This document shows, piece by piece, positions 5,079 to 36,590 of a stretch of 42,847 nucleotides of DNA. Source of the DNA: Roseomonas sp. Its GTDB lineage: Bacteria > Pseudomonadota > Alphaproteobacteria > Acetobacterales > Acetobacteraceae. The position numbers and the translations under genes were made by a program. Where the stretch lies: the NCBI GenBank assembly GCA_020249865.1, contig JADCEV010000052.1:1-42847 (forward strand). The letters are read 5' to 3'. The notes beneath the pieces are model-generated. The model did no database searches and was not told the DNA's origin. It saw nothing but the letters and a program-made list of their open reading frames with translations. Within the stretch, counting starts at the first letter, position 1. Each line of letters begins with the position of its first letter.

Positions 5079-5894
5079 TCAGGTTCGTCGCCCTAGCGAC
5101 ACGGCCTTGTCTAAATCCGCGACCGCATTCGCCTGGTCTCCCCGCAAAGCATGGGCACGCCCACGATTTTGATAGGCTTCAGCATTACTGGGATCAAGCT
5201 GAATGGCCTTAGTGAAATCGTCAATGGCGGCGGCGCTATTGCCTTGCGCGAGGCGAAGGGAACCACGATTGACGTAGAAGGAAGCGACATCCGGCTTGAG
5301 TTGTATGGCGCGGTTGGAATCCGCCATGGCGCCCGCATTGTCATTCAAAAGACGCTTGACCATTCCCCTGAGATCATAGGCATTGGCATTATTGGGCTCA
5401 AGGCGGATGACCGCATTCGCGTCATCGAGCGCGCCTGTGAAATCACGTTGCGTGATTCGGATGGCCGCCCTTAGAGAACGTGCATTTGCGCGATCTGGGG
5501 CAAGGCGAATGATCTCGTTCAGGTCCTCCTGGGCACCGACCATATTGCCCTGCCGCATCCGAAGTTCGGCGCGGGCGGCATAGCCCCCGACAAAGCGTGG
5601 GTTTATGCGTAGGGCAGCATCACAATCGGCAGCGGCACTTTCGGATGCATTCATGCGACCTTTCACAATGCATCTTTCGGACAAAACCTCGGGAAATTCG
5701 GGCCGCAAGTTGAGCGCCGCATCAAAATCCGCCAAGGCAGCAGTAAGGTTACCGGTTTGCCGATGGATAGAACCGCGCATCGCAAGCACGGCAGCCATCT
5801 GGGCATTATTGCCTGTAGCTGTTGTGGTCGGTAAGGAATGCTGCTGAGCGCAACCCGCCAAGGATAGTGCCAGCACGACGATCAAGACCCGCAT
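5079..5894 (-). CDS. TPR-repeat lipoprotein
   Basis: The protein (271 residues from the ATG at 5894) opens with MRVLIVVLALSLAGC, a short lipoprotein signal with an L-S-L-A-G-C lipobox. The mature protein would therefore be anchored through Cys15. About seven 34-residue tetratricopeptide repeats follow, each with the alternating pattern RG...G...AA..D...AI.L.P. They run almost to the C-terminus, forming a superhelical protein-binding scaffold. In-frame ATGs at 5915 and 5948 would add basic residues before the signal; 5894 is preferred because GGA lies about 9 bases upstream. The partner is unknown. The neighbouring aminotransferase gives no clear functional link. Confidence 0.85.
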   Translation of the reverse strand: MRVLIVVLALSLAGCAQQHSLPTTTATGNNAQMAAVLAMRGSIHRQTGNLTAALADFDAALNLRPEFPEVLSERCIVKGRMNASESAAADCDAALRINPRFVGGYAARAELRMRQGNMVGAQEDLNEIIRLAPDRANARSLRAAIRITQRDFTGALDDANAVIRLEPNNANAYDLRGMVKRLLNDNAGAMADSNRAIQLKPDVASFYVNRGSLRLAQGNSAAAIDDFTKAIQLDPSNAEAYQNRGRAHALRGDQANAVADLDKAVSLGRRT

Positions 5895-6073
5895 GTCAAG
5901 CTTCCGCTCTCTCATTCTTCTGTAAAGTCTCCCATTCCCATATCGCACATGTCAATTATTCCGAAACCGAGCGATCCTTGGGTTCCAAGGGCCTTTCGGC
6001 CCTTGGCGGGTGGGTGCGGGAGAGCAGAGCCCTCCCGCTTCTGTTATCATGATTCTTTATCAGGAGTGTGCCC

Positions 6074-6823
6074 ATGTCGCGCGATATCCTCGGCTGGCGG
6101 AAGCTTTTTGGCGTGATGGGGCCTTCAACCAATACGGTGGTGCAGCCTGATTATGACATGCTGCGCCCGGCGGGTGTCACCAATCACTATAGCCGCATTT
6201 TCACGCCTGATTCCGATGCGGTTTCCAATGAAAGTTTTCGGGCCGGTATTGCCGTGATCAGTGGCAATACGATGGATGCGGTGCGCAGTGTCATGACCTG
6301 CCATCCGGATTACCTGGTGATGGGCATGTCGGCGATCACGTTTTTCGGTGGGCGGAAGGGCGCCGATGATTTTGTGGCGCAGGTCAGGGATGTTTCCGGC
6401 CTTGGGATCAGCATTGGCAGGCATTCCTGCACGGCCGCCTTGAATGCCTTTGGTGGCATCAGGCGCATTGCGGTGCTGACGCCGTATTGGCCGGTGATGA
6501 ATGCGGAAGTGGCGCGCTATTTCGGCGATATGGGTTTCAGCGTGGTGCGCGATATCGCGCTGCAATGCCGGAGTTGGACTGGTATTGCGCAGGTGACGCC
6601 AGCGGAATGCGTGGCGGCGTTGAAGCGGCTTGATGGCGATGATGTGGATGCAATTGTGCAGGTGGGCACCAATCTTTCCATGATCCGTGTGGCAGCAGCG
6701 GCCGAGCTTTGGTTGGGCAAGCCGGTGCTCGCGATCAATACTGCGACTTATTGGCATGCGCTGCGTGCCAATGGGATTGCGGAAAAGCGCGAAGGTTGTG
6801 GCCGGATTTTTGAGGAGCATTGA
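6074..6823 (+). CDS. Maleate isomerase / arylmalonate decarboxylase-like protein
   Basis: A 249-residue cytoplasmic protein of the Asp/Glu-racemase superfamily, closest in pattern to maleate cis-trans isomerases and arylmalonate decarboxylases. It shows LFGVMGPSTNTVVQPDYDML (11-30), VMGMSAITFFGG (82-93), RIAVLTPYWPVMN (131-143) and a final VLAINTATYWHALRANGI (218-235). The ATG at 6074 has AGGAG 7 bases upstream. In the characterised families catalysis uses a Cys in each half (maleate isomerase), or only the second (arylmalonate decarboxylase). At the corresponding positions here I read MSA (85-87) and GTNLS (198-202), without Cys. Substrate and reaction therefore remain open. It is coupled to the next gene with a 3 bp gap. 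Confidence 0.75.
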   Translation: MSRDILGWRKLFGVMGPSTNTVVQPDYDMLRPAGVTNHYSRIFTPDSDAVSNESFRAGIAVISGNTMDAVRSVMTCHPDYLVMGMSAITFFGGRKGADDFVAQVRDVSGLGISIGRHSCTAALNAFGGIRRIAVLTPYWPVMNAEVARYFGDMGFSVVRDIALQCRSWTGIAQVTPAECVAALKRLDGDDVDAIVQVGTNLSMIRVAAAAELWLGKPVLAINTATYWHALRANGIAEKREGCGRIFEEH

Positions 6824-6826
6824 TCC

Positions 6827-7615
6827 ATGTCTGGTGCTGCGCTTGCCGAAATCCGCGAAACTGAAGCGCCCCCCGCGATTGCCGCGATTTATGCGGCGCT
6901 GAATGAGGGGATTGGCATTGGCCAGGTGAACCTCATCTGGCGCCATGCGGCGACGCTGCCTGGGGTCTTGGATTGGCTTTGGGCGCAGGCCGCGCCGGCA
7001 CTTGGCTGCGGTGCGGCGGCGGCAGCGCGGGATGAAATTGCGGCCGCCATCACGCTTCCCATGCCTGCCGCATTACAGAAGCCGCAGGAGCACGCGGCAA
7101 TCACGGCGGTGGTGGAGATCTATAATCGCGGCAATCTGACAAATCTCGCTTTGCTTTCGGCCATTTTGCTGCGCGCGCAAGGCATGGCGCCAGGCGCACC
7201 ACTGCCCGCCGCAACGCGTGGCGCGATGTTGCCGGCGCCGCCGCCCCTGCCGCGCTTGGCCGGTTTGCCGCCCGCGCAACAGGCGCAGATACGCGCGCTG
7301 ACCGCCGCGCATGGGCTTTCCGATGCGGCGGTGGTGCCAAGCCTTTATCTGCATCTGGCGTTATGGCCGGAATATCTGGCGCGCCTGCCCGAATTGCTGG
7401 CACCGCTGCATGCCGAACAGCGCCTGCACGGCGCGCGCGATGCCGCCGTGGCAGCGGCACGCCGGGCCGCGCCGGGGCTGATCGCAGATCTTGGCGCAGC
7501 GCCGGCACCCCCTGCTGCCTTGCCCGTATTCCTGACGCGGCTTGAGGTTTTTGTGCATGAGGTCATCCCCGGCATGGTGCCGGTTGGGCTATTCCTGCGC
7601 CGCGCCCTGGCGTGA
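6827..7615 (+). CDS. DehI-like (haloacid dehalogenase type) protein, tentative
   Basis: This is a 262-residue, all-helical, Ala/Leu/Pro-rich protein. Segments VNLIWRHAATLPGVLDWLWAQ (about 34-54) and VVEIYNRGNLTNLALLSAILL (about 95-115) recall the two pseudo-repeats of the DehI/2-haloacid dehalogenase family, related in helical fold to AhpD proteins. The match is from memory of the pattern and is not strong. The start codon follows the stop of the maleate-isomerase-like gene by 3 bp, with its GAGGAG site inside the end of that gene, so the pair is an operon. An organic-acid breakdown role for the pair is inference. No catalytic residue can be assigned with confidence. Confidence 0.5.
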   Translation: MSGAALAEIRETEAPPAIAAIYAALNEGIGIGQVNLIWRHAATLPGVLDWLWAQAAPALGCGAAAAARDEIAAAITLPMPAALQKPQEHAAITAVVEIYNRGNLTNLALLSAILLRAQGMAPGAPLPAATRGAMLPAPPPLPRLAGLPPAQQAQIRALTAAHGLSDAAVVPSLYLHLALWPEYLARLPELLAPLHAEQRLHGARDAAVAAARRAAPGLIADLGAAPAPPAALPVFLTRLEVFVHEVIPGMVPVGLFLRRALA

Positions 7616-7670
7616 AGGTAAGCAGACCAAACCGCGGGCGGATCAGCCGGACGAAGTAGCCCCTTTCAGC

Positions 7671-10487
7671 TCAGGTCAGCGCAAACAACGCCATGATGTC
7701 GGCAAGACTGGTATTGCCGACCAGAATAACGTCATCCCCCGCGCCACCATCAAGGCTCGCCACGCCAAGGCCAGCGATCAGAAGATCATTGCCCAGGCCG
7801 CCAAACATCTGATCGCCCTCTCCGAAGCCATTCAGGGTATCATTTCCCGCATCACCCGACAGGGTATTTGCGCCTTGATTGCCCATGATCATGTCATCGG
7901 CCGCACTGCCAGTGATGCTGATACGCGCCACACCTTGGGCGATCACGGCAAACTCTACATTCGTTGGAAGGAAAAGGCTTGCTGTGGCAATCAGCGTGTC
8001 CGCGCCGCCATTGGCGTCTTCATTGATCTGATCGGCGCCGGTAACGTTCAGGTAAAGATCATTGCCCGCGCCGCCTTCCAGCACATCGCTGCCCGCACCA
8101 CCGTCAAGCGAATCGGCCCCGGCATTGCCACGCAGCAGATTGGCAGCGGCAGAACCCATGATGCTGTCGGCACCTGAGCCACCATAAGCATCTTCAATCG
8201 TCACATCACGGGCAATGGAGACATTGTTGCGCAATCCACCGACTGAGGAGAAGGCTTCTTCATTCAGGTTGATCCATTGCGTCTCATCATAGCCGGAAAA
8301 ATCAAGCACATCACGGCCGCCGGCATCCCATATCGAGAAATTGACCTGATGATCAGCGCCGGTAATGGAAAAAGCCTGCCCTGCATTTGCGTTGAAGCCA
8401 TAGATGTTATCGCCTGTACGTGTACTCATATTGGCCCCGTAAAGGCGCTGGATGGCCGCGATATCGTAAAGCAGGGGCGTGGCTGAGCTGGCAGAGCCCA
8501 AAAATGCGTGAGTTGCATTTCCGTTGAAATAGCTCATTGCCGTGTATTGTTCGGAATCTTCGAAGAAAATCGCATTGCGCGCATAGGCAGTATAGCCAGT
8601 ACCGCTAATATTGTAGTTTCCTGGATGTTCGAGACCGAGCGCGTGCCCAACTTCATGGATGTAAAGCTCAAATCCACCATTGGCATCGGTAGGCGCAATG
8701 GCAGCTTGCTGCTGCGCATTGAAATAGACGTAGTTTCGCCATGGCCCTGTGGCATTGCTCCAACCTCCATAGCCAGAAGCATTGGCCGGGCCGGTGCCTG
8801 AAGTCGCGCTTGTATAATTCCAAAGGGTGAATTGCGCGTCGTTGCTGTATTGGCTGCCAGGATTCTGAACGCGGGTCAAAGTTATATTGGCCACATCCTG
8901 CCATTGCTGCATGGCGTAAAGCGCGGCGGTAATTTGCGCCTCATTCAACCGGTCAAAGCCGGATGCACCGGTGACCATGGTCGTCGGCAAATTCGCATTC
9001 GAGTCGCGAAATGCAAAAGTGATTTCAAGCGGATTGCCAAGACCATTGGTAAAGCGCGCGTTAGTGCTCGTGATATTGCGTGAAATCTGCGCGGCAGCCG
9101 TCGCCCAATCATATTCCGGCAGCGGATCATCGAAGGGGCTTCCCAATACCGGCGGCAGGCCGAGTTCACTCGGCGTACCAGGGGAGGGGAAAAGCGGCGT
9201 ACCAAGACTGGTGACACGCGTCGCCTGTATGCCAGAACCGCTGCCATCCGAAGCATCCGTGCCGCCGTAAACCGCTATGACACTTTGGTCCGCCAATAGC
9301 GCCAGGGTAAAGCCGGGGACCGAAGTATCCGGCAAGGTCGTGATGACGAAATCACTGGCCCCGAGCGCGCCATTATGGTCCACCCAGCGACCGCGGATGG
9401 TATCGGTCGTGCCATTTTCAAAGGAATGCCACCAGACAAGGCGCCGCCCGTCATTGAAACCAAGAATACTCGGGGAGCGCTGATCGTCTTCTGTCGTGGT
9501 ATTGAGGACGAAATCCGAACCCGAGGGGGTTCCATCGGAAGCCATCAACCGGGCGCGTATCGTTCTGCCTGACCCGTCGCCGGTGTCGGTAGATTGCCAA
9601 ACCTCCAGTATCCGGCTGTCGGCAAGCCGGCTGCTTCGAACACCGGTCTGGTCCCCGGCAGTCGTCGTATTGACCAGATAATCATTACTCGATCCACCGA
9701 TGCTGACCGCATTAAAATTGCCGCTGCTGTCAACCGAAAACACCCGATTGCGGATTTCAGTACCGTTTGTGCCGCCTTCCGGCGATTCAAAGCGTAGCAA
9801 AACATTGTTGTTGGAAAGATTCTGAAACCCGATTGAGGCTGGCGTGCCGGGAAGAGTTGTATTGAGCAGCGCTTCATTGTTCTGCGCGGCGAGTGTGGCC
9901 GAATTGAAGCTCCGGCCTTGAATCTCGCCATCATTCTCATAGGCGAAAATCAGACGTCCGGTACTCCCACTGCGCTGAATGAAGGTATAGGACCCATCCG
10001 CACCACTGGCGCTGAGTTGTACCTCTCCGGTCAGGGCCACACCATCGGCGCTGAAGCGGCGGCCAAAGAGATGCGAATTGCTTGGATTGGACTGATCAGG
10101 TGAGCGCCAGGTGATCAGAACAGACCCATCATTGAGCGCGAGTGAACTGATGCCGGTCTGCGTGCCTGCGGTTGTCTCATTGACCCTGATGTCAGGCCCT
10201 ATCGCTGACCCATCCAGACGAAAGAAGCGCGCCCTGATGTCCTGCCCATCATCGGCACTGCCGCTTGATAGGAAGGAAATGACGAAATTGCCGTTTGATA
10301 GGCTCTGGAAACTCGCGGAGCCTTGATTGCCATTGGTAGTGCTTGGCACACCAAAGCCATTCGTCTCAGCTTCCAGCGGCTCTATTGGGGGCGGGGGGTG
10401 GACGTGGTCATGATCATCTTCATGGTCGTGGTCGTCATCCAGGGGCATACCGGCACCAAATGCTGCTCTTTGAAATGATACCATCAT
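7671..10487 (-). CDS. Serralysin-like RTX metalloprotease with N-terminal repeat domain
   Basis: This 938-residue protein appears to be secreted and calcium-dependent. Residues 17-30 form a His/Asp cluster (DDDHDHEDDHDHVH) followed by prolines. Residues ~50-435 hold about six or seven repeats of ~60 residues with the pattern L.NG..V..W...DG....I..R.....G........N, probably beta-blades. The M10 peptidase core has the zinc site HEVGHALGLEH (611-621) and the Met-turn YTAMSY (648-653). RTX nonapeptide repeats (GGxGxDxLxGGxGND-like) occupy ~768-810 and ~859-925. There is no Sec signal; an uncleaved C-terminal type I secretion signal (ending IMALFALT) is expected. The ABC exporter gene 38 bp upstream on the same strand may be its transporter, but no membrane-fusion or TolC gene is nearby. 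Confidence 0.92.
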   Translation of the reverse strand: MMVSFQRAAFGAGMPLDDDHDHEDDHDHVHPPPPIEPLEAETNGFGVPSTTNGNQGSASFQSLSNGNFVISFLSSGSADDGQDIRARFFRLDGSAIGPDIRVNETTAGTQTGISSLALNDGSVLITWRSPDQSNPSNSHLFGRRFSADGVALTGEVQLSASGADGSYTFIQRSGSTGRLIFAYENDGEIQGRSFNSATLAAQNNEALLNTTLPGTPASIGFQNLSNNNVLLRFESPEGGTNGTEIRNRVFSVDSSGNFNAVSIGGSSNDYLVNTTTAGDQTGVRSSRLADSRILEVWQSTDTGDGSGRTIRARLMASDGTPSGSDFVLNTTTEDDQRSPSILGFNDGRRLVWWHSFENGTTDTIRGRWVDHNGALGASDFVITTLPDTSVPGFTLALLADQSVIAVYGGTDASDGSGSGIQATRVTSLGTPLFPSPGTPSELGLPPVLGSPFDDPLPEYDWATAAAQISRNITSTNARFTNGLGNPLEITFAFRDSNANLPTTMVTGASGFDRLNEAQITAALYAMQQWQDVANITLTRVQNPGSQYSNDAQFTLWNYTSATSGTGPANASGYGGWSNATGPWRNYVYFNAQQQAAIAPTDANGGFELYIHEVGHALGLEHPGNYNISGTGYTAYARNAIFFEDSEQYTAMSYFNGNATHAFLGSASSATPLLYDIAAIQRLYGANMSTRTGDNIYGFNANAGQAFSITGADHQVNFSIWDAGGRDVLDFSGYDETQWINLNEEAFSSVGGLRNNVSIARDVTIEDAYGGSGADSIMGSAAANLLRGNAGADSLDGGAGSDVLEGGAGNDLYLNVTGADQINEDANGGADTLIATASLFLPTNVEFAVIAQGVARISITGSAADDMIMGNQGANTLSGDAGNDTLNGFGEGDQMFGGLGNDLLIAGLGVASLDGGAGDDVILVGNTSLADIMALFALT

Positions 10488-27505: not shown

Positions 27506-28924
27506 TCAGGTTTCCAGCATGCGCCGGAGCAGCTCCACATCCTCCGCGAAGGACCCATCGCCCTTCATCAGCTCCGCCACACGAGAGACGGCATGCATGA
27601 CCGTCGTATGGTCCCGATTGCCAAAGCGCCGCCCGATTTCGGGGAGTGAACGCGATGTCAGCTGCTTCGCCAGATACATCGCCACCTGCCGGGGCCGCGC
27701 GACATTGCGGGCACGCCGGGCAGAGGACATGTCGGTCAGGCGGATATTATAATGCTCGGCAACCTTGCGCTGGATTTCCTCAATCGTGACGCGCCGGTCA
27801 TGGGCGCGGAGGATATCATGCAAAACCTCCTGCGCGCCTTCCAGCGTGATGGGCCGGCCAAACAGATTGGCCCAGGCGATCAGGCGATTAAGCGCGCCTT
27901 CCAATTCCCGCACATTGGACGTGATCTTGTGCGCGAGGAATTCCATGACGCGCGCCGGCACCGCAACGCCGGATGACGCTGCCTTGGCTTCCAGGATGGA
28001 GATGCGGAGTTCATAGGTGGTCGCGTGCAGATCAGCCACCATGCCGCAGCCAAGCCGCGTGCGCAGCCGGTCTTCAATGCCGGACAGGTCGGATGGGGAT
28101 TTATCCGCGGAAATCACAATCTGCTTGCCGGCATCCACCAGCGCATTGAAGGTGTGGAAGAATTCTTCCTGCGTATTGTCCTTGCCGATCAGGAATTGCA
28201 GGTCATCCACCATCAGCACATCAACCGAACGCAGCGTTTCCTTGAATTCCATGGTGGATTGGCTGCGCAGCGCGGCGATAAAGCGATACATGAATTTCTC
28301 GGCGCTCATGTAAGCAACATGGCGTTCGGGATGTTGTTCGCGAATGGCCCAGGCAATGGCGTGCATCAAATGCGTCTTGCCAAGCCCAACGCCGCCATAA
28401 AGGAACAGTGGATTGAAGCCAGGTGTTGCAGGCTTTTCTGCCACGCGGCGCGCGCAGGCATGGGCGAATTCATTCGGCTTGCCGACGATGAAGCTATCGA
28501 AGGTGAAGCGCGGATCAAGCGGCGCGGACCAATCGCCGCGCGGATCAGCGACGCGGGGCGCGACACTTGTCAGGCTTTCGGCCAAGGGCTTCGGGCCATT
28601 CGCCGAAGCCTCTCCCGCAGCCGCGCGGCTGCCGGCTGCGACGCGCAGATCAACCCGGCGAATGGCAGGATTTTCCAGCTGCCATAAGGAACGAAGCCGG
28701 TCACCGTAATGGCTGCTGACCCAATCGCGCAGGAAACGTGTGGGGAGTGTGATCGTGGCTTCATCGCCATCAACGGCCGCAAGGGTCATTTGGCGAAGCC
28801 AGCTGCGAAATTCGACATCGCCCACTTCTTCGCGCAGCTTGGCGCGGATACGGGCCCATGCTTCGGCCCAGGCAGCGGGACCTTGTGGAGACATGCTATC
28901 GCTTAGCTTTTCCGTGCTTCGCAA
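27506..28924 (-). CDS. dnaA: Chromosomal replication initiator DnaA
   Basis: DnaA binds DnaA boxes and melts oriC. The protein has domain I ([24 protein letters not shown]), a short linker and the AAA+ core. The core carries Walker [10 protein letters not shown] (177-185) and Walker [13 protein letters not shown]. The C-terminal DNA-binding domain carries [27 protein letters not shown] and the signature [10 protein letters not shown]. Two starts are possible. TTG at 28924 (472 residues) has an excellent GAAGGGGG site 7 bases upstream. ATG at 28894 (462 residues) has none. I give the TTG, which as a weak start codon could also limit DnaA synthesis. Confidence 0.96.
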
Positions 28925-29200
28925 GGCGCTGCCCCCTTCAAACGCTTATATCACCAACCCCGTTGCCATCATCATGCTTCGGAGCGCGACCAAAATTCAA
29001 TAGCAAAAGAAGCTGACCAAAAAATTTTCGCAGAACCGAAAAGCCGCGTCATCATAGCTTGACATATGCAGTGAAATCCTCGCGCACCATCAGTGATAAC
29101 GCGCGCATTACGAGCAGGGCATTTGAGCCGCGCAGACAAAGCTACGCGGCGTAAAATGCGGAATATTCCCGGAAGATCGCGAAGAAAAAAGATAACGCCG
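28925..29200. other. rpsT-dnaA spacer, AT-rich, no recognisable oriC
   Basis: These 276 bases separate rpsT from dnaA, both on the minus strand. An AT-rich stretch lies at ~28985-29045 (AAAATTCAATAGCAAAAGAA, CCAAAAAATTTTCG). A TATGAT read on the minus strand (29056-29051) is a possible dnaA -10, without a good -35. I searched for TTATCCACA-type boxes and found only poor matches (TTATATCAC, TTATCACTG), and no GANTC sites. In alphaproteobacteria the origin is often away from dnaA, so this is probably a promoter region only. Confidence 0.4.
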
Positions 29201-29467
29201 TCAGGCGCCGACGGATTTCACCCGCGCGGAAAGTCGCGACAATTTGCGCGCGACAGTATTGGCATGCACCACACCCTTGGTCGCAGCGCGCTGCATTTCA
29301 GGCTGGGCCGCGCGAAACGCTTCCTGGGCCGCAGCCTTGTCGCCAGACTTCACCGCTTCTTCGACCTTGCGCAAAAAGCTCCGCACACGCGACTTGCGCG
29401 CCTTGTTGCGCGCGGTGCGCTTTTCAGTCTGACGAATGCGCTTGCGCGCGGAAGCGTTATTGGCCAT
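29201..29467 (-). CDS. rpsT: 30S ribosomal protein S20
   Basis: A small, very basic 88-residue protein begins [39 protein letters not shown] and ends [16 protein letters not shown]. This is the characteristic S20 three-helix sequence that binds 16S rRNA in the 30S body. The ATG at 29467 is the conserved start; the frame is open to 29584 but that part is not conserved. rpsT next to dnaA is a common alphaproteobacterial arrangement. A weak stem (CCGTC/GACGG) spanning its stop, followed by TTATCTTTTTTC on the minus strand, might help termination. Confidence 0.96.
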
Positions 29468-29630
29468 GGGCTGTCTGTTCAAACCTGGAAAGGAAGCGGC
29501 GCTTGGCCGCCTGGGAGGGCGGGTAACTAGCGCCGGAGCCTGGGCTGCGTCAAGCCGGGCCGTTTGGGTTACCTCCAAGGCCATGGCGTACGGCTTTTCT
29601 TATCCGATTGACGCGTTAAATTGCCAATCC

Positions 29631-30338
29631 ATGAAGCGTTTCTGGGAAGCGGCCCTGGCCGTACCAAGGCTTGAAGGCGGCTACGGCGTCGTGCTGGATG
29701 GTCGCCCCTTGCGCCTGCCCGGCGGCAGTATCCTTGCCACCGAAAAGCGCCGCCTGGCTGAGGCCATTGCCGATGAATGGCACAGGGCTGGCGGAACCAA
29801 GGGCGGTGAGATGACCCAGGAAGATGTGCCCCTCACCCGGATTGTGGCTTCTGCCCAAGAACGCATCGCGCCAGACCCGAAACCCGTTGTGGAGGGCATC
29901 ACGAAATATGGAGAAACGGACCTGCTCTGCTACCGGGCTGAGGATCATCGCCTCGCTGCGCGGCAGGCAGAAGCCTGGCAGCCCATGATTGAATGGGCGG
30001 CGCTGGCGCTGGATGCGCCGCTCAACATCACGCAGGGGCTCATGCCCGTGCCCCAGGCCCCCGAAAGCCTGGCTGCGCTGCAGGCCGCCGTCGCGCGGCA
30101 TGATGCCGGCGGCCTCGCCGCGCTTGGCGTGGCGGTGCCGGCCTTGGGCAGCCTGGTGCTTGGCCTTGCCATCAGCCTTGGGCGGCTCAATGCCGAAGAA
30201 GCGCATCGGCTGGCGATAGTTGATGAGGTATTTCAGGAAGAATTCTGGGGCACGGATGCAGAAGCCGCTACGCGGCGCCAGAGCCGCCTTGATGATCTGA
30301 AACTGGCCGAGCGTTTCCTGGCACTGATGGCCGACTGA
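29631..30338 (+). CDS. ATP12-family F1-ATPase assembly chaperone
   Basis: A 235-residue protein is homologous to mitochondrial ATP12, which binds the F1 alpha subunit before assembly. It opens MKRFWEAALAVPRLEGGYGVVLDGRPLRLPGG, followed by LAEAIADEWHRAGG, a TRIVASAQERI helix and the ETDLLCYRAE...LAARQAEAWQPMIEW block, all family hallmarks. ALSLGRLNAEEA-like and VDEVFQEEFWGTDAEA segments close it. The ATG at 29631 is chosen because family members begin at MKRFW; ATG 29583 would add 16 residues. It is divergent from rpsT. Confidence 0.92.
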   Translation: MKRFWEAALAVPRLEGGYGVVLDGRPLRLPGGSILATEKRRLAEAIADEWHRAGGTKGGEMTQEDVPLTRIVASAQERIAPDPKPVVEGITKYGETDLLCYRAEDHRLAARQAEAWQPMIEWAALALDAPLNITQGLMPVPQAPESLAALQAAVARHDAGGLAALGVAVPALGSLVLGLAISLGRLNAEEAHRLAIVDEVFQEEFWGTDAEAATRRQSRLDDLKLAERFLALMAD

Positions 30339-30418
30339 TTCTTTTGCGCTAACCTGCATGGATTGTTTCGGAGTCGGCCACTCATGGGTCAACCGTATCT
30401 TCCAGTGGAATCCTGCGC

Positions 30419-31234
30419 ATGAAGCTTCCCCCGTGTCGCAAGCTATACAAGGCGCTGATCCTTTTCATGCTCGCTCTGCCGATCCTGCCGGCGCGCGGGG
30501 AGGCCGAAGCGCTGATGGAAGACCCCTTTGGCATCATCGGCGTCGCACCGACCGCCGCGGGCGGCCAAACCTTGAGCCTCGGCCTTGGGTATTCGCGCGC
30601 GCGGGATGGCGCGAACCGCAATCTTTACGGCGGCGCGCTGGAAGCTGAAGCGGGGCTGGTGCGCGGGCTTGATCTGCGCCTTGCCCAGGCGATCGAATTC
30701 GGTCCCGCAGCGCCCTACCCCGCGGATGATGCAAAGCGCGTATGGGGCGGGCTGTCCCAGCTTGGGTTGCGTTGGCAATTCCTGGAAGAAGATGGCTGGC
30801 GCCCGGCGCTTGGTGTTTTTGGTGCTGTGCGCACCGCCTATGGGGAGACGAGCGTGCCATCGCAAAGCGGGCAGATTGTTGGCCTGCTGAGCAAGACCCT
30901 GATTGAAGGCCCGCGCCCGCTGGCGTTTTCATTCAATGCCGGCTGGTCCGAATTGTTCAATGCGGAACCTGGGGAAAGGGCGGGGCGCTATGAATTCGCC
31001 GCTGGCCTCACGCAGAACCTTGCCCAAAATACGTCACTTGGCGTCAGCTATTTGCGCCATCAGCAGGATCGCGGCGAAAAGGATCAGAACATCATCGCGG
31101 CCGGGCTTTGGCATCGGCTTGGGCGCGCCGGCCCCATCATGGCCGCGGGCGCGGGCGCGGGGATTGGCGATGATTCACCGCGCTTTCTGGTTTTCGCCTC
31201 GCTCAAATGGCTTTTCGGGGCAGCGGCGCCGTGA
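30419..31234 (+). CDS. Exported beta-barrel-like protein, unknown function
   Basis: A 271-residue protein has a signal peptide (basic MKLPPCRKLYK, hydrophobic ALILFMLALPILPA, cleavage near residue 28). Alternating amphipathic strands follow: QTLSLGLGYSRAR, LRLAQAIEFG, LRWQFLEEDGW, LGVFGAVRTAYG and TSLGVSYLRHQQDRG. The final strand is FLVFASLKWLFG. The pattern suggests a small outer-membrane barrel or a lipid-binding periplasmic barrel. I do not recognise a named family. It starts 81 bp after the ATP12-like gene on the same strand and converges with the serine hydrolase (12 bp between stops). Confidence 0.7.
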   Translation: MKLPPCRKLYKALILFMLALPILPARGEAEALMEDPFGIIGVAPTAAGGQTLSLGLGYSRARDGANRNLYGGALEAEAGLVRGLDLRLAQAIEFGPAAPYPADDAKRVWGGLSQLGLRWQFLEEDGWRPALGVFGAVRTAYGETSVPSQSGQIVGLLSKTLIEGPRPLAFSFNAGWSELFNAEPGERAGRYEFAAGLTQNLAQNTSLGVSYLRHQQDRGEKDQNIIAAGLWHRLGRAGPIMAAGAGAGIGDDSPRFLVFASLKWLFGAAAP

Positions 31235-31246
31235 TGCTTTGGCGCG

Positions 31247-32485
31247 CTATGCCTCAATCGCCTGATAGGTCAGCATATTGATCAGGCGGCGATAGCGCTG
31301 GCGCAATTCGCCCGGCGCATGGGCCATGAAGACAACACTCAGCCGCTCCGCCGGATCGGCCCAGAAATACGTGCCCCAAACGCCGGACCAGCCAAAGGCA
31401 CCGGGCGCACCCATGAGGCCAGAGCCACCACGCGCCAGCCGCACCGCAACAGTCAGGCCGAAGCCATAACCAGCCAAGGCCGGGTCCATGGAAGCCACGC
31501 GATTATCGATGCCCTGCAAATGATCCGATGCCATCCAGGCAACCGTTTGCGGCGCCAATACGCGCACGCCATTCAGCACGCCACCGGCGCGCAGCATTTC
31601 AACAAAGCGCAGATAATCCGCCGCGGTGGAAACCAAACCCGCGCCGCCGGTTTCCATCTTCGGCGCGCGCAGCGGCGCTTCCACGGATTGCGGCGCACCC
31701 GTGATCGAGTCCTTCGCAAAAGGCCGGGCAAAGCGCGCCAGTTTTTCTTGGGGCAGCACATAGCCGGTTTCTTCCATGCCAAGCGGCGCAAAAACACGCT
31801 CCCGCATCAGCGCGCCAAGCGAGGCACCACCCGCGCGTTCCGCAACCCCGCCCAGCACATCCGTCGAAAGCCCATATTCCCAAACCGTGCCGGGATGGTG
31901 GCGGAGCGGCAGGCCAGAAAGGGTCTGCGCAAAGCCCTCCGTATCCATATTCTCGGCAACCCAGAAGGAACCGGGAGGTGCCACGGCATGCACGGCCGTG
32001 CCATCGCGCCCGCCATAAACCAGGCCCGTTGTGTGGCGCATGGCATCCTGCACCGTCATGGGGCGGATCGCCGCTTCGCTTTCAATCGGGCCTTTCCCAG
32101 AAAGCATTTCAGGCGTTGGCTTCGCCACCTGCATCTGCATCAGCGGCGGCAACCAGGCACCAACCGGGTCAGTCACCAGCAGGCGGCCTTCCTCGATCAG
32201 CGAAAGCGCCACCACGCCGGTGACGGGTTTCGTCATGGAGGCAATGGAGAAAATCGCATCCGCCTGCATCGGCGCGTGGCTTTCGGGATCACGATGGCCA
32301 ATCGCTTCCAGATGCACCAGCTTGCCATCGCGTGCGATGGCGACAACGCAGCCCGGCAGCCTGCCGGCGGCCATTTCGCGTTCCATCGCCGGGCGAATAC
32401 GCGCGAGCCTCGCGGGTGACATGCCAACCATTTCCGGCCGCGTGACCGGCAAAGGCGGCGCATCGGTTTCAATCACCGGGCTCAT
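31247..32485 (-). CDS. Serine hydrolase, class C beta-lactamase-like
   Basis: A 412-residue penicillin-binding-protein-fold hydrolase. The nucleophile motif is SMTK (S83-K86), followed by GVVALSLIEEGRLLVTDPV. WEYGLSTDVLG holds the Tyr of the second motif, and the region AFGWSGVWGTYFWADP takes the place of the KTG box. No signal peptide is seen, so the enzyme is probably cytoplasmic and an esterase or EstB-like hydrolase rather than a resistance enzyme. The start ATG at 32485 overlaps the stop of the metallo-beta-lactamase-fold gene as ATGA, so the two are coupled. Confidence 0.9.
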   Translation of the reverse strand: MSPVIETDAPPLPVTRPEMVGMSPARLARIRPAMEREMAAGRLPGCVVAIARDGKLVHLEAIGHRDPESHAPMQADAIFSIASMTKPVTGVVALSLIEEGRLLVTDPVGAWLPPLMQMQVAKPTPEMLSGKGPIESEAAIRPMTVQDAMRHTTGLVYGGRDGTAVHAVAPPGSFWVAENMDTEGFAQTLSGLPLRHHPGTVWEYGLSTDVLGGVAERAGGASLGALMRERVFAPLGMEETGYVLPQEKLARFARPFAKDSITGAPQSVEAPLRAPKMETGGAGLVSTAADYLRFVEMLRAGGVLNGVRVLAPQTVAWMASDHLQGIDNRVASMDPALAGYGFGLTVAVRLARGGSGLMGAPGAFGWSGVWGTYFWADPAERLSVVFMAHAPGELRQRYRRLINMLTYQAIEA

Positions 32486-33129
32486 GGGGCGTTCTCTCCG
32501 ACGAAGGGATTGCTGCGGCGTTCCGCGCCAAAGCTGGAAGCCGGGCCATGGCCGCAAAGGAATTGGATATGATCACCCAGCGGAAAAAGCTTTGTGCGAA
32601 TGGCATGCAGCAGGGCCGCCGTATCGCCATAGGGAAAATCAGTGCGCCCGATGGAACCCTGAAACAGCACATCGCCCACAATGGCGATACCCATCTCCGC
32701 ATTCACGAAAACCACATGCCCTGGCGTATGGCCCGGGCAGTGCAGTACAGCAAAAGCGATGCCGGCGATCTCCACCGTCTCACCTTCGTCAAGCCAACGA
32801 TTGGGCGTAACGGCGCGGCATTGCAGCCCGTATTTGGCGCCCTGTTCCACCAGGCCTTCCAGCAGGAAGGCATCGGCGCGATGCGGGCCTTCAATGGGGA
32901 TATTGCCGAGCACCTCGGCCAATTCTGCAGCGCCACCGGCATGATCCATATGGCCATGCGTCAGCAGTATGCGGTCAATGGTGATGCCGGCTTCGGTAAT
33001 CGCGCCTTCGATCTGCGCGACATCGCCGCCCGGGTCTATCACCACGCCGCGCTTGGTATCCTGATCCCAGATCAGGGCGCAGTTTTGCTGAAAGGGCGTC
33101 ACGGGGATGATGGCGGCGGCAAGGGTCAT
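32482..33129 (-). CDS. MBL-fold metallo-hydrolase (glyoxalase II-like)
   Basis: This 215-residue protein starts MTLAAAIIPVTPFQQNCALIWD and carries the zinc motif THGHMDHAGG (57-66), the His in CPGHTPGHVVF, the bridging Asp in IVGDVLFQGSIGRTDFP and a final CGHGPASSFGAER His. The sequence fits the short glyoxalase II/YcbL-type thioesterases that hydrolyse S-acylglutathione or related thioesters. It lies 66 bp after the DUF2783 gene and overlaps the serine hydrolase by 4 bp, forming a three-gene minus-strand unit. Confidence 0.92.
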   Translation of the reverse strand: MTLAAAIIPVTPFQQNCALIWDQDTKRGVVIDPGGDVAQIEGAITEAGITIDRILLTHGHMDHAGGAAELAEVLGNIPIEGPHRADAFLLEGLVEQGAKYGLQCRAVTPNRWLDEGETVEIAGIAFAVLHCPGHTPGHVVFVNAEMGIAIVGDVLFQGSIGRTDFPYGDTAALLHAIRTKLFPLGDHIQFLCGHGPASSFGAERRSNPFVGENAP

Positions 33130-33195
33130 GGGCCAAGGCTGGCCTGAATGGCCCGAAAGGTAAAGAAGCAAGCGCGGTCTTTCCAGCGCGGCGCC

Positions 33196-33408
33196 TTATG
33201 CCTTTGGGCTTTGGGAAATTGTCGCGCGTGCCAGCGCCAGGGCTTCGCGCAATACGGGCATATCACCAATTTGATTGGCGAGAATCAGCACCAAGGCCGC
33301 GTTCAGATCAGCACTTTCGTTTTCCGTCAGGCCGCGATGCGCTTCAATAATGGCGCGATAGGCCGCATCGGGATCGGCGAAGCGCGCGCTGGTATCAAGC
33401 CCTGTCAT
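33196..33408 (-). CDS. DUF2783-type small protein
   Basis: A 70-residue protein: MTGLDTSARFADPDAAYRAIIEAHRG..., then ESADLNAALVLILANQIGD and a final short helix. The pattern ADPDAxYRAIxEAHxGLxxxxSxxLNAxLVLxLANxxGD is what I remember of DUF2783. Members usually sit beside a metallo-beta-lactamase-fold hydrolase and an oxidoreductase, as here with the hydrolase. Function unknown. ATG 33408 has an AGG about 9 bases upstream; the in-frame extension to 33507 is unconserved. Confidence 0.8.
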   Translation of the reverse strand: MTGLDTSARFADPDAAYRAIIEAHRGLTENESADLNAALVLILANQIGDMPVLREALALARATISQSPKA

Positions 33409-33827
33409 GGCGCACCTGTCTTTCTGAACCATGGCCTTGGCGCAGATCGGCCACCTGCTGAAACCGGGTCGCCATATAGCCATCCGAAGCCATGAATTAG
33501 CCCGCAAGAGATGTCAGTACAAAGCATGCGTCAGCCACTCGTCATTGTCTGCGGCATCACCGCGTGGACACTTTTCTCCCCAAGCCTTAGTACCGTTTCG
33601 CTAATGTCGCAACGGCAGAAGCGAAGCACACTTTGCATTGAAGGTGTATCCAGACAAAGAGTATCCTCGAGCATTTCCGAGAAAGCGATAAGACAGGATT
33701 TTGGTACTTGCCGCGCAAGGGAATGATAGCGGGAAATACGCTCCCGCACGGGCAGGCTACTCTGGACGTGCTCTCAAAATCCGTCATTATAACCGATTTG
33801 ATTTTCGGGTTACAGCACCAGCGCGTC
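33409..33827. other. Island-flanking spacer without a convincing gene
   Basis: This 419-bp stretch marks the junction between GC-rich core DNA (up to ~33500) and the more AT-rich acquired-looking DNA beyond. Two short open frames on the minus strand (33531-33749 and 33587-33874) encode nothing I recognise and have no ribosome-binding site worth noting. It contains an inverted repeat GCGGG/CCCGC (33729-33747) and a hairpin just after the Abi-type gene. I looked for a copy of the tRNA-Arg 3' end, as expected of an attachment-site repeat, and did not find one. Confidence 0.45.
33790..33812 (-). terminator. Hairpin after the Abi-type gene, weak terminator candidate
   Basis: TAACCGA (33790-33796) pairs with TCGGGTTA (33805-33812), with one bulged G and an 8-base AT-rich loop. 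It starts 16 bp past the stop of the gene at 33828-34664. Only TAAT follows on the minus strand, so termination is doubtful. Confidence 0.3.
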
Positions 33828-34664
33828 CTAACTTCCGCTGTCCTTTTGCCCTTCGCGGTCCTTCCACGTGGCAACTAAGAACGCGGCCATGGTGCCCGCG
33901 AGGTTGACCGCAAGCTCCGCGTGTCGTGTCTTCGGGCGCACTGGCCTTCGTCCCTGCCCGTGCGAATCGCTGATCTTGTTCCGCAGCGTGCCGAGCCGGT
34001 TCACAATTTGCTGGCAGCTTCCGAGGATGGCCTTGAAGCTCTCTTCGTGATGTTGGCTTGGCGCGAGGTTCAACCGTTCTGACGCCATACTCCAAAGCTT
34101 GGGAAGATCGGCGTCTTCCGGGTATGCTGCGCTCGCATCGTCAAGGACGTGCTTACACACAGTTTCGAGCAAAGTGCGTGCGGCCGTGATGGCGCCTTCG
34201 GGATCGGCGGCACGGCGATCGAGCGCCTTCTGCCACGCGGCGTGCACGTTATCAGCGTCGAAGGCTTCCAAGGCCTCCGTGATCGGCGTGACGCCCGGCG
34301 TGCGGTCAAGGCCTTCCAGGTAATCCAACAGTGGCCGGAACCCGCCCCATATGAGTTGCCTGCGTTCTGCGTAGGTTGGCTTCTCGTATTTGACCCAACC
34401 CCAGAACTGCGCGAGATCGCTGCATCGTTTGATGAATTCCGGCAGTTTGGTCTTTGTGTCGGCACGCTGCGCAAAATAGCGGCGAAGTTCCTTGTAGACT
34501 TTATCGCCGCCGTCGAAAGAGCACCCTGTCGCTTCCGCGATAAGCCCTTCCTGCAACCGCATTGCGCGGTCTAAATCTGTCTTGCCAAATAGCGTATCGT
34601 CCGGGTCCACGTCGCGCCTATGCACGCTTGTTAGTGGTGTCGCAGGGGGTGGGCGAAGCGTCAT
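33828..34664 (-). CDS. Abortive-infection family protein (Abi_C-like domain)
   Basis: A 278-residue soluble protein. The N-terminal ~150 residues are helical (DLDRAMRLQEGLIAEATG, ELRRYFAQ, RRQLIWGGFRPLLDYLEG). Residues ~156-270 match my memory of the Abi_C domain: GAITAARTLLETVCKHVLDD, a middle LPKLWSMASERLNL, and LGTLRNKISDSHGQG (224-238). The last contains R228-x6-H235, the Rx4-6H pattern of HEPN ribonucleases. Proteins of this class are tied to phage abortive infection. The ATG at 34664 overlaps the upstream gene by 47 bp; a TTG at 34772 or GTG at 34625 are other starts. The overlap implies coupled expression. RNase activity is inference. Confidence 0.8.
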   Translation of the reverse strand: MTLRPPPATPLTSVHRRDVDPDDTLFGKTDLDRAMRLQEGLIAEATGCSFDGGDKVYKELRRYFAQRADTKTKLPEFIKRCSDLAQFWGWVKYEKPTYAERRQLIWGGFRPLLDYLEGLDRTPGVTPITEALEAFDADNVHAAWQKALDRRAADPEGAITAARTLLETVCKHVLDDASAAYPEDADLPKLWSMASERLNLAPSQHHEESFKAILGSCQQIVNRLGTLRNKISDSHGQGRRPVRPKTRHAELAVNLAGTMAAFLVATWKDREGQKDSGS

Positions 34665-35409
34665 GATGGAGGGGCGGCCCTTCGCCGCGTCGGCGTCGTG
34701 CACGATCTTCCACGATACGAAGAAGATGACTGGTGAGAATGAGCATCTCGCCTGCCTCTGACGCGTCGGCAATCGTCACTGTGCGATGGCTGGTCGGGTT
34801 CTTGTAGGAGCCGATAGCTCCCGCAAAAAGGTGTCCCAATGCTTCACGTTCGGCCCTCAGCAACGTGTAATCTGAAAGCGGCCCTGTGTCAGGATGGAAC
34901 GCTGTCCGCATAAGCTCTGCGCCGATCATGCGTGCATCGGCGCCAGCGGCCTCGCGCACCGCAACCTCAACTTGCTTAAAGGCCGCGAATACCGCGAGGT
35001 CATGTGCGCCGCGTAGGAAATTTGCCCAGGCATCGGACGCGATCTTGGGATGCAGCAAGTTGCGCGGAAGCAGTGCGGCCTTTGCAAAATCATTGAACGC
35101 TTCGTCGGTCTCAATCTTCTCGCCCGCACGTGAAATGGCGTACCAAGCGCCCATATCCCGCGGCTTTGGCACTATCAATCCCTGTACGGCGAGCCATGTC
35201 CAAGCCTCTGAAATTGCGAGTCCAATGGCTTCAGAAAATTGGCGCGGATAAACTTCCTGCATCTGATGGAGGTGATTGACGATGTTGAATAGATGGATCT
35301 CGCCACGATGTCGCTTGAAAATCGGAAGTAGCACGCGGGCAAGTTCCTGAGGTGCGAGCGAAAGAAGAACTTTGGCATCGGGAAGGGCGGTCTTTATGTC
35401 CTGGATCAT
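34618..35409 (-). CDS. TIGR02391 family (HEPN_Ymh-like) protein
   Basis: A 263-residue soluble protein. The N-terminal ~115 residues look like a winged-helix-type region (EIHLFNIVNHLHQ..., ISEAWTWLAVQGLIVPKPRD). Residues ~118-240 carry the TIGR02391 pattern: LHPKIASDAWANFLRGAHDLAVFAAFKQVEVAVREAAG, IGAELMRTAF, LFAGAIGSYKNPTSHR (194-209) and a final helical bundle. In relatives the KNPxxH segment is the HEPN active-site motif. Here K203-N204...H208 is kept, but the Arg of the strict Rx4-6H form is not. First gene of a two-gene unit with the Abi_C-like gene, 175 bp from the tRNA-Arg 3' end. Base composition is visibly lower in GC than neighbours. Confidence 0.82.
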   Translation of the reverse strand: MIQDIKTALPDAKVLLSLAPQELARVLLPIFKRHRGEIHLFNIVNHLHQMQEVYPRQFSEAIGLAISEAWTWLAVQGLIVPKPRDMGAWYAISRAGEKIETDEAFNDFAKAALLPRNLLHPKIASDAWANFLRGAHDLAVFAAFKQVEVAVREAAGADARMIGAELMRTAFHPDTGPLSDYTLLRAEREALGHLFAGAIGSYKNPTSHRTVTIADASEAGEMLILTSHLLRIVEDRARRRRGEGPPLHHDASPTPCDTTNKRA

Positions 35410-35583
35410 GCTGCAAGCTCACACCGATTCTTTAGCTGCGTAACATAGGAAAACCATTACGGCCGCGCCTCACAAGTTGGCGACCCTTCCCCAAACGCGC
35501 CGGAGGTATAATGAGAATTGTTAGGACGCCGCAAAGCAACATCTCTATTTTTCGCATGAAATCAGATAGTAAAGCAGAAAATC

Positions 35584-35660
35584 TGGCGGACCCGATACGA
35601 TTCGAACGTACGACCTTTGCCTTCGGAGGGCAACGCTCTATCCAGCTGAGCTACGGGTCC
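35584..35660 (-). tRNA. tRNA-Arg, anticodon CCG
   Basis: Read on the minus strand the sequence folds into a full cloverleaf. The 7-bp acceptor stem GGACCCG/CGGGTCC is closed by a G discriminator and an encoded CCA (35586-35584). The D-arm contains AGCTCAGCTGGATAGAGC. The anticodon stem TTGCC/GGCAA has the loop CTCCGAA, so the anticodon is CCG, reading CGG. The T-loop is TTCGAAT. Its 3' end faces the two defence-type genes, a typical integration-site geometry. Confidence 0.97.
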
Positions 35661-35721
35661 CCAACAACGCTTCTAGCCCGGCCAAGGCCCCGGGGGAAGG
35701 GCTTTCGCAAGGCAGCCACCC

Positions 35722-36579
35722 TCATTCCGCCGGAATGGATTGCTCCAGCCGATAGGGATGCGCGCGATAGGCGCCCAGGATTTTCATGGAGGAGGAGAAA
35801 AATGCCAACTCCTCAAAAGCGCGGCGCAGGCCCGGTTGATCCGGATGCCCATCCACATCACACAGGAATTGTGTCGCGGCGAAGCGCCCGCCGACCATAT
35901 AGCTTTCCAGCTTGGTCATATTGATCCCATTGGTGGCAAAGCCCCCCAGCGCCTTATAGAGCGCGGCCGGGATGGAGCGCACCTGAAAGACAAAGGTGGT
36001 CACCACATTGGGCGCATCCACCGGCGCATCGGCCCTGTCGCGGGACATGACATAAAAGCGCGTGGTGTTATGCGCCTCATCCTCCACATTCCGCTTCAGC
36101 ACTTCCAGCCCGTAGATTTCGGCGGCCAATTCGCTGGCAATCGCGGCATCTTCCACGCCGCCGCGTTCGGCGATCAGCGCCGCCGCACCCGCCGTATCGG
36201 CCTCAATCACCGGGGTCAGCTTCATGTCCTTCAGCAGGCGCAGCACCTGGCCAAGCGCAACCGGGTGGCTATGGGCGCGCTTCAGCGTGGCAAGGCTCGC
36301 GCCCTTGGGCGCCAGCAGGCAATGTTCCACGCGCTGGAAATGCTCGCCCACCACGAAAAGCCCGGAATCGGGCAACATGCGATGAATATCCGGCACGCGG
36401 CCAGCCAGGGAGTTCTCACACGGCAGCATGGCCAGATCGCATTGCCCATCGCGCAAAGCCGCCATGGCGGCTTCAAAGGATGGGCAGGGCAGGGTTTGCG
36501 CGCCCGGATAGGCAGCGCGGCAGGCAAGATCGGAATAGGCGCCAAGGACGCCCTGGAAGGCGATGCGAATCTTTGACAT
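35722..36579 (-). CDS. pheA: Prephenate dehydratase
   Basis: A 285-residue monofunctional enzyme converts prephenate to phenylpyruvate in phenylalanine synthesis. The catalytic domain runs 1-180 with AFQGVLGAYSDLA (7-19), LPCENSLAG (52-60) and NTTRF (171-175), whose Thr is catalytic. An ACT regulatory domain follows (about 190-275). Its GINMTKLESYMVGG (218-231) has ESY in place of the enterobacterial ESRP phenylalanine-sensing motif, as in other alphaproteobacteria. No chorismate-mutase domain is fused. It lies 11 bp downstream of kdsB on the same strand. Confidence 0.95.
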   Translation of the reverse strand: MSKIRIAFQGVLGAYSDLACRAAYPGAQTLPCPSFEAAMAALRDGQCDLAMLPCENSLAGRVPDIHRMLPDSGLFVVGEHFQRVEHCLLAPKGASLATLKRAHSHPVALGQVLRLLKDMKLTPVIEADTAGAAALIAERGGVEDAAIASELAAEIYGLEVLKRNVEDEAHNTTRFYVMSRDRADAPVDAPNVVTTFVFQVRSIPAALYKALGGFATNGINMTKLESYMVGGRFAATQFLCDVDGHPDQPGLRRAFEELAFFSSSMKILGAYRAHPYRLEQSIPAE

Positions 36580-36590
36580 GGGGTGTTCCT

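Follow-up and report, generated by a model that had tools for sequence, protein, structure and literature searches.

Two adjacent genes on the minus strand of a Roseomonas sp. contig (JADCEV010000052.1), here called gene A (34618 to 35409) and gene B (33828 to 34625), are most simply explained as two stand-alone abortive-infection genes of the HEPN RNase type that were brought together in one cassette beside a tRNA-Arg gene, and we consider this account fairly likely. Their pairing is probably a local assembly and not a fixed two-part system. Positions refer to the window, i.e., the whole 42,847-nt stretch of DNA that was analyzed. The families of the two proteins, their modeled folds, the conservation of their motifs, the foreign insert that carries them, and, for the loci examined, the absence of any conserved partner are directly supported. 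A preliminary description of this DNA had reported the two open reading frames (ORFs), which are present at this place and on this strand, and it had rightly presented them as HEPN-type genes of two families tied to phage defense that lie beside a tRNA gene. They are closely spaced on the same strand, within a foreign insert at that tRNA.

Gene A encodes a TIGR02391/Hypoth_Ymh protein of 263 aa with a predicted winged-helix-like N-domain and a HEPN domain. Profile searches placed it above the cut-offs of both PF09509 Hypoth_Ymh (E 4.1e-23, 81.9 bits, cut-off 25) and TIGR02391 (E 9.9e-16, 58 bits, cut-off 39.45), as expected from its first assignment as TIGR02391/HEPN_Ymh-like. The motif KNPTSH, noticed previously at residues 203 to 208, was confirmed at 34786 to 34803 (minus strand) and is kept in relatives: in an alignment of 63 sequences, comprising gene A, 59 of 80 genome loci, and three of four viral loci, K203, N204, S207, and H208 were invariant in 63/63. 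Its form is K203-x4-H208, with Lys replacing the Arg of R-x4-6-H. The predicted structure had solved HEPN folds as its best matches, and the N-domain, which is predicted to be winged-helix-like, had matches that include the MepR and PadR regulators. A plain Foldseek search of gene A against the PDB returned no match at E 0.001. Searching the PDB by sequence gave nothing useful. Differences between gene A and its nearest full-length relative were distributed over the three codon positions as 48/33/152 across 250 codons, indicating protein-level constraint. A PD-Lambda-3 B-subunit model matched gene A weakly (E 3.1e-4, aa 106 to 229), with gene A alone matched.

The second gene had been described as Abi_C-like, and gene B indeed matched PF14355 Abi_C well above its cut-off (E 2.7e-21, 75.9 bits, cut-off 24), so that the profile searches planned at the outset placed both proteins in the families named for them. 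Its C-terminal part (aa 151 to 265) also matched the PADLOC AbiJ model (E 1.4e-21), and aa 28 to 269 matched PHROG 23253 (E 6.1e-74); no AbiJ N-terminal domain was found with the Pfam AbiJ_NTD models at E up to 1. The HEPN motif R228-x6-H235 (33960 to 33983, minus strand), also reported earlier, proved to be conserved in two alignments of 26 sequences each, one built with 25 chosen relatives and the other with 25 of 34 viral loci, leaving out five near-duplicates and four with stops. R228 and H235 were invariant in 26/26 sequences of one set, gene B counted, and conserved at ≥90% without being invariant in the other. The structure predicted for gene B had solved HEPN folds as its best matches, with MNT-HEPN toxins among the matches, and this modeled fold together with an R-x4-6-H motif places it in the HEPN superfamily. 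A plain Foldseek search of gene B against BFVD gave no match at E 0.001, and viral scans with P0002 alone or with the Ymh protein of the order genome G067 found no relatives. Chance ORFs as an explanation for genes A and B were ruled out by the profile matches, the conserved motif, and the codon-position differences.

The start of gene B bears on how the two genes meet. An overlap of 47 bp, as first described, needs the start at ATG 34664, from which gene B would have 278 aa with its stop at 33828. Two observations oppose this start: 12 of 18 full-length B relatives have no start codon upstream of the position equivalent to P0002 residue 17, and residues 1 to 20 of the ATG 34664 form were modeled with pLDDT <50. 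The 47-bp overlap was therefore rejected as a biological feature. The likelier start, from the sequence and the starts of relatives, is either GTG 34625, which would give an 8-nt overlap of the B start with the A stop (34618 to 34625, minus strand; GTGCATAG), or GTG 34610, 7 nt past the A stop. Because the relatives point to one of these two codons, genes A and B would either share 8 nt or lie almost end to end.

Both genes lie in a strain-specific insert of 2,140 bp (33444 to 35583) at the 3′ end of the tRNA-Arg (CCG) gene, which occupies 35584 to 35660 on the minus strand, next to the pair as previously noted. In two genus relatives (G319 and G318), the backbone match stops at 33443 and restarts at 35584 with 68 bp between, and this break delimits the insert at the tRNA 3′ end. 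Its GC content is about 53 to 60%, versus 60 to 68% around it. A larger island around the pair was ruled out, as 28002 to 33443 and 35584 to 36580 match the genus backbone. At its left boundary, the insert showed no direct repeat matching the end of the tRNA. The search for a sigma-70-like promoter found none (mean of 0.9 in shuffles), and a single terminator-like site was found at 33683 to 33664, below the shuffle mean of 2.7.

The same site varies among relatives. The tRNA end was found with pheA in 35/35 genus genomes searched; the pheA/tRNA matches include or come near the tRNA in 19 of them, at 89 to 95% identity. Comparing the tRNA-side DNA of 18 genus relatives with the window, we found the site also nearly empty in G267 and G313, and other DNA between both flanks in G320, G315, G302, and G203, the last with a second tRNA copy. 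The left flank was unmatched in nine of the 18, G301 included, and G324 was ambiguous. The cargo of G315 looks largely metabolic by eye, and among the four proteins scanned, defense genes at other relatives' tRNA-Arg sites were found in G301 only. The insert is best read as a foreign cassette that was gained by horizontal transfer and sits at a tRNA with varying cargo, and the site shows swapping of accessory genes, in one relative beside a restriction system. Related 347-aa proteins are present in the tRNA-Arg cargo of G203 (L184, 10699 to 12001), where the second tRNA lies on the far side, and of G320 (L172, 7982 to 9439); the 347-aa protein of G320 had no clear Pfam family in the scan.

In the relative with the restriction system (G301:C46, about 5214 to 7707; locus L196), the same tRNA has beside it genes for a DNA methylase (PF01555) and for an MTaX1-HNH endonuclease (PF20296, PF13391), followed by a remnant of gene A. 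The remnant consists of the first 50 codons, its protein is 88% identical to that of gene A, and its ATG overlaps the endonuclease stop by 4 nt, as ATGA. An incomplete duplicate of the pheA/tRNA region then interrupts it, at a point where an assembly fault is possible because the genome is 78% complete and in about 400 contigs. This locus ties gene A at tRNA-Arg to a restriction-modification (R-M) operon, in agreement with the link between Ymh and R-M given in PMC3710099.

The partner genes are not conserved together. A single scan of genome contigs gave 102 close relatives of gene A, of which the best 80 were analyzed, most with 1.5-kb flanks. Neither a B-like frame (tblastn, E 1e-3) nor an Abi_C-profile match was found in the flanks of these 80 (0/80 each); some loci stop at contig ends, several of them shortly past gene A (e.g., L038, L060, and L070), where B could lie beyond. 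Conversely, a Ymh gene was the immediate neighbor of B relatives at 0/49 distinct loci (E 1e-30; 91 of 98 possible neighbors covered). Among 299 genomes of the family, B relatives occurred in 28 and A relatives in 9, and both only in the window's genome (G000) and G108, on separate contigs in the latter. Likewise, among 35 genomes of the genus, A occurred in 3 and B in 5, with both in G000 and in G313, again on different contigs in G313. These counts speak against the proposal in the preliminary description that this pair is a fixed toxin/partner or sensor/effector system.

A looser arrangement, a Ymh gene followed by an Abi_C gene, does recur. Using Pfam models on 250 genomes of the order, we detected PF14355 in 39 and PF09509 in 13, one of them below its cut-off. 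Both families were present in four genomes, versus about two expected if they were independent, and adjacent in three of these, namely, G000, G067, and G386 (where the Ymh gene scores below its Pfam threshold), while G329 has them on separate contigs. The Ymh gene of G067 overlaps an AbiJ_NTD3-Abi_C gene by 4 nt. A similar pair, 82% and 78% identical to that of G067 and with a 1-nt overlap as annotated, is found on the Roseomonas mucosa plasmid pTT14-3 (CP099474), and G386 holds a decayed copy in which the Ymh gene is reduced to its final part, which shares a reading frame with the Abi_C gene. In domain trees built from 121 Ymh and 77 Abi_C sequences, these three pairs fell, roughly speaking, across the midpoint root from A and B of the window. 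In the gene neighborhoods surveyed, the exact pair is not recurrent, and the looser order recurs with unrelated subfamilies in one other lineage. Two side observations concern this lineage. On pTT14-3 (L300, 4976 to 8803), the pair is flanked by an ORF that weakly resembles Abi_2 (E 0.0013) and by another annotated with a reverse-transcriptase domain. Streptomyces plasmid proteins annotated as Shedu SduA (H165 to H168 and H170) were also matched by the AbiJ_NTD3-like N-domain of the protein from G067.

This recurrence keeps some weight on a mixed HEPN unit. Genes A and B could form one functional unit, either as a mixed dimer whose active site is built from both proteins or with a winged-helix sensor that switches on its partner. 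Their tight adjacency and probable coupling would fit such a unit, as would the Ymh-then-Abi_C order in G067, pTT14-3, and decayed G386, far from the window's genes in the trees, and the adjacency in three of the four order genomes with both families. In addition, two pTi plasmids have the two families separated by about 1 kb: pTiCG920 (L085), one of the 49 B loci, has a shortened TIGR02391 gene upstream of an Abi_C gene with a recombinase frame between them, and NZ_CP124966 has the two families in a similar arrangement. These two were found among 40 of 196 plasmid records with B, and more may exist. However, besides the absence of pairing at the 80 close A loci and the 49 B loci, samples of the order, class, and phylum had Abi_C in the flanks of only 3/39 PF09509 loci, in two lineages with the window counted, and of 2/38, in one lineage, with the window excluded. 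Moreover, relatives without the partner keep full HEPN motifs. On balance, we regard a single functional unit as unlikely. A broader version of this idea, in which Ymh and Abi_C constitute a recurrent bicistronic class that was put together on two or more occasions from separate subfamilies, and in which the mixed HEPN dimer cleaves only with both proteins while the winged helix of A reads a phage cue, appears distinctly unlikely.

If the two genes are instead stand-alone effectors stacked in one cassette, gene A would carry its Ymh-type HEPN domain behind a winged-helix-like domain for sensing or binding, and in gene B an AbiJ/Abi_C-type HEPN domain would follow an N-domain of helical structure. 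Each protein would most likely act alone, kept inactive by its own N-domain until a phage cue releases the HEPN domain; cellular or phage RNA would then be cut, and the infected cell would halt before phage production. The genes are probably cotranscribed and translationally coupled, their adjacency having arisen by local stacking of two independent genes. The RNase activity, the phage trigger, the shared transcript, and the independent action of A and B are what we infer in this scheme.

No Pfam family occurred twice among 42 scanned neighbors of A relatives (42 of 64 close neighbors in the main Pfam scan; ten and one more were scanned separately). Clustering of the A neighbors, which left out ten loci (L005, L027, L033, L038, L039, L042, L070, L074, L080, and L128; nine of them in the tblastn check for B and all in the Abi_C profile check), gave as its largest cluster a tyrosine recombinase at four loci, plus a fifth by annotation, all with a 4-nt overlap. 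Smaller ones, with two or three members, came in part from near-identical relatives. Near 38 other Ymh loci, 74 of 138 frames were hand-picked, leaving out Ymh frames and mostly short frames, and the first 25 families listed included Abi_C 2 times, integrase 3 times, and type I specificity 2 times; Abi_C is hence one of several defense or mobile neighbors and not a dominant one.

The recombinase overlap at five A relatives, together with the MepR and PadR matches of the N-domain, would suit a role of the genes as regulators of host or mobile-element genes, A acting via its winged helix, with no RNase or defense function. Against this stand the conserved HEPN motif, the R-M neighbor in G301, and the defense setting known for both families from PMC3710099, and we find a purely regulatory role improbable. 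A toxin and antitoxin of one gene each is highly improbable: the genes are small, tightly linked, and HEPN-encoding, with MNT-HEPN toxins among the fold matches of B, but neither matches a nucleotidyltransferase family in profile searches, and both motifs are intact and conserved in partnerless relatives, without an antitoxin-like loss of motif. MntA-HepT accordingly resembles the window pair in the HEPN fold of its toxin and differs from it in having a nucleotidyltransferase partner.

PMC3710099 treats Ymh and AbiJ as HEPN families and gives Ymh as a solo or a fused protein and as part of R-M operons. Gene A shares with HEPN_Ymh (PF09509/TIGR02391) its family, its HEPN fold, and, in relative G301, R-M company, but it has Lys for Arg, a modeled winged-helix-like N-domain, and an Abi_C neighbor instead of R-M genes. 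Gene B resembles AbiJ/Abi_C (PF14355) in its C-terminal HEPN domain with R-x6-H, its PADLOC AbiJ match, and the plasmid and phage-like contexts of its relatives, whereas its N-domain matches no AbiJ_NTD model and a Ymh gene precedes it. The pTT14-3 and G067 pairs have the same gene order, tight junction, and HEPN families as the window, but they belong to distant subfamilies, carry AbiJ_NTD3 in the second protein, and show about 28% identity where aligned. PF14355 is counted among Abi proteins (PMC10121019), an AbiJ is entered under no activity (PMC12322248), and HEPN is mentioned in Dnd neighborhoods (PMC10853773). The open-access literature, as far as its accessible text goes, yielded no description of the Ymh/Abi_C pair, and the sources covered in part give no worked-out mechanism for either family. 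Whether HEPN effectors combine could be tested simply on the two Ymh/Abi_C pairs, which are independent of each other.

Some further arrangements of TIGR02391 genes were observed. At L010, L072, L121, L085, and L083, the TIGR02391 gene is followed by the tyrosine recombinase gene with the 4-nt overlap, possibly as a mobile unit. At L029 (6001 to 7340), it overlaps a 207-aa gene by 4 nt, which may be a further double-HEPN pair; the 207-aa gene matched HEPN_AbiU2 weakly, below the cut-off (E 0.034). In Burkholderia phage KS9 (L082, 332 to 1457), the TIGR02391 gene overlaps the small upstream gp30 by 8 nt, as annotated.
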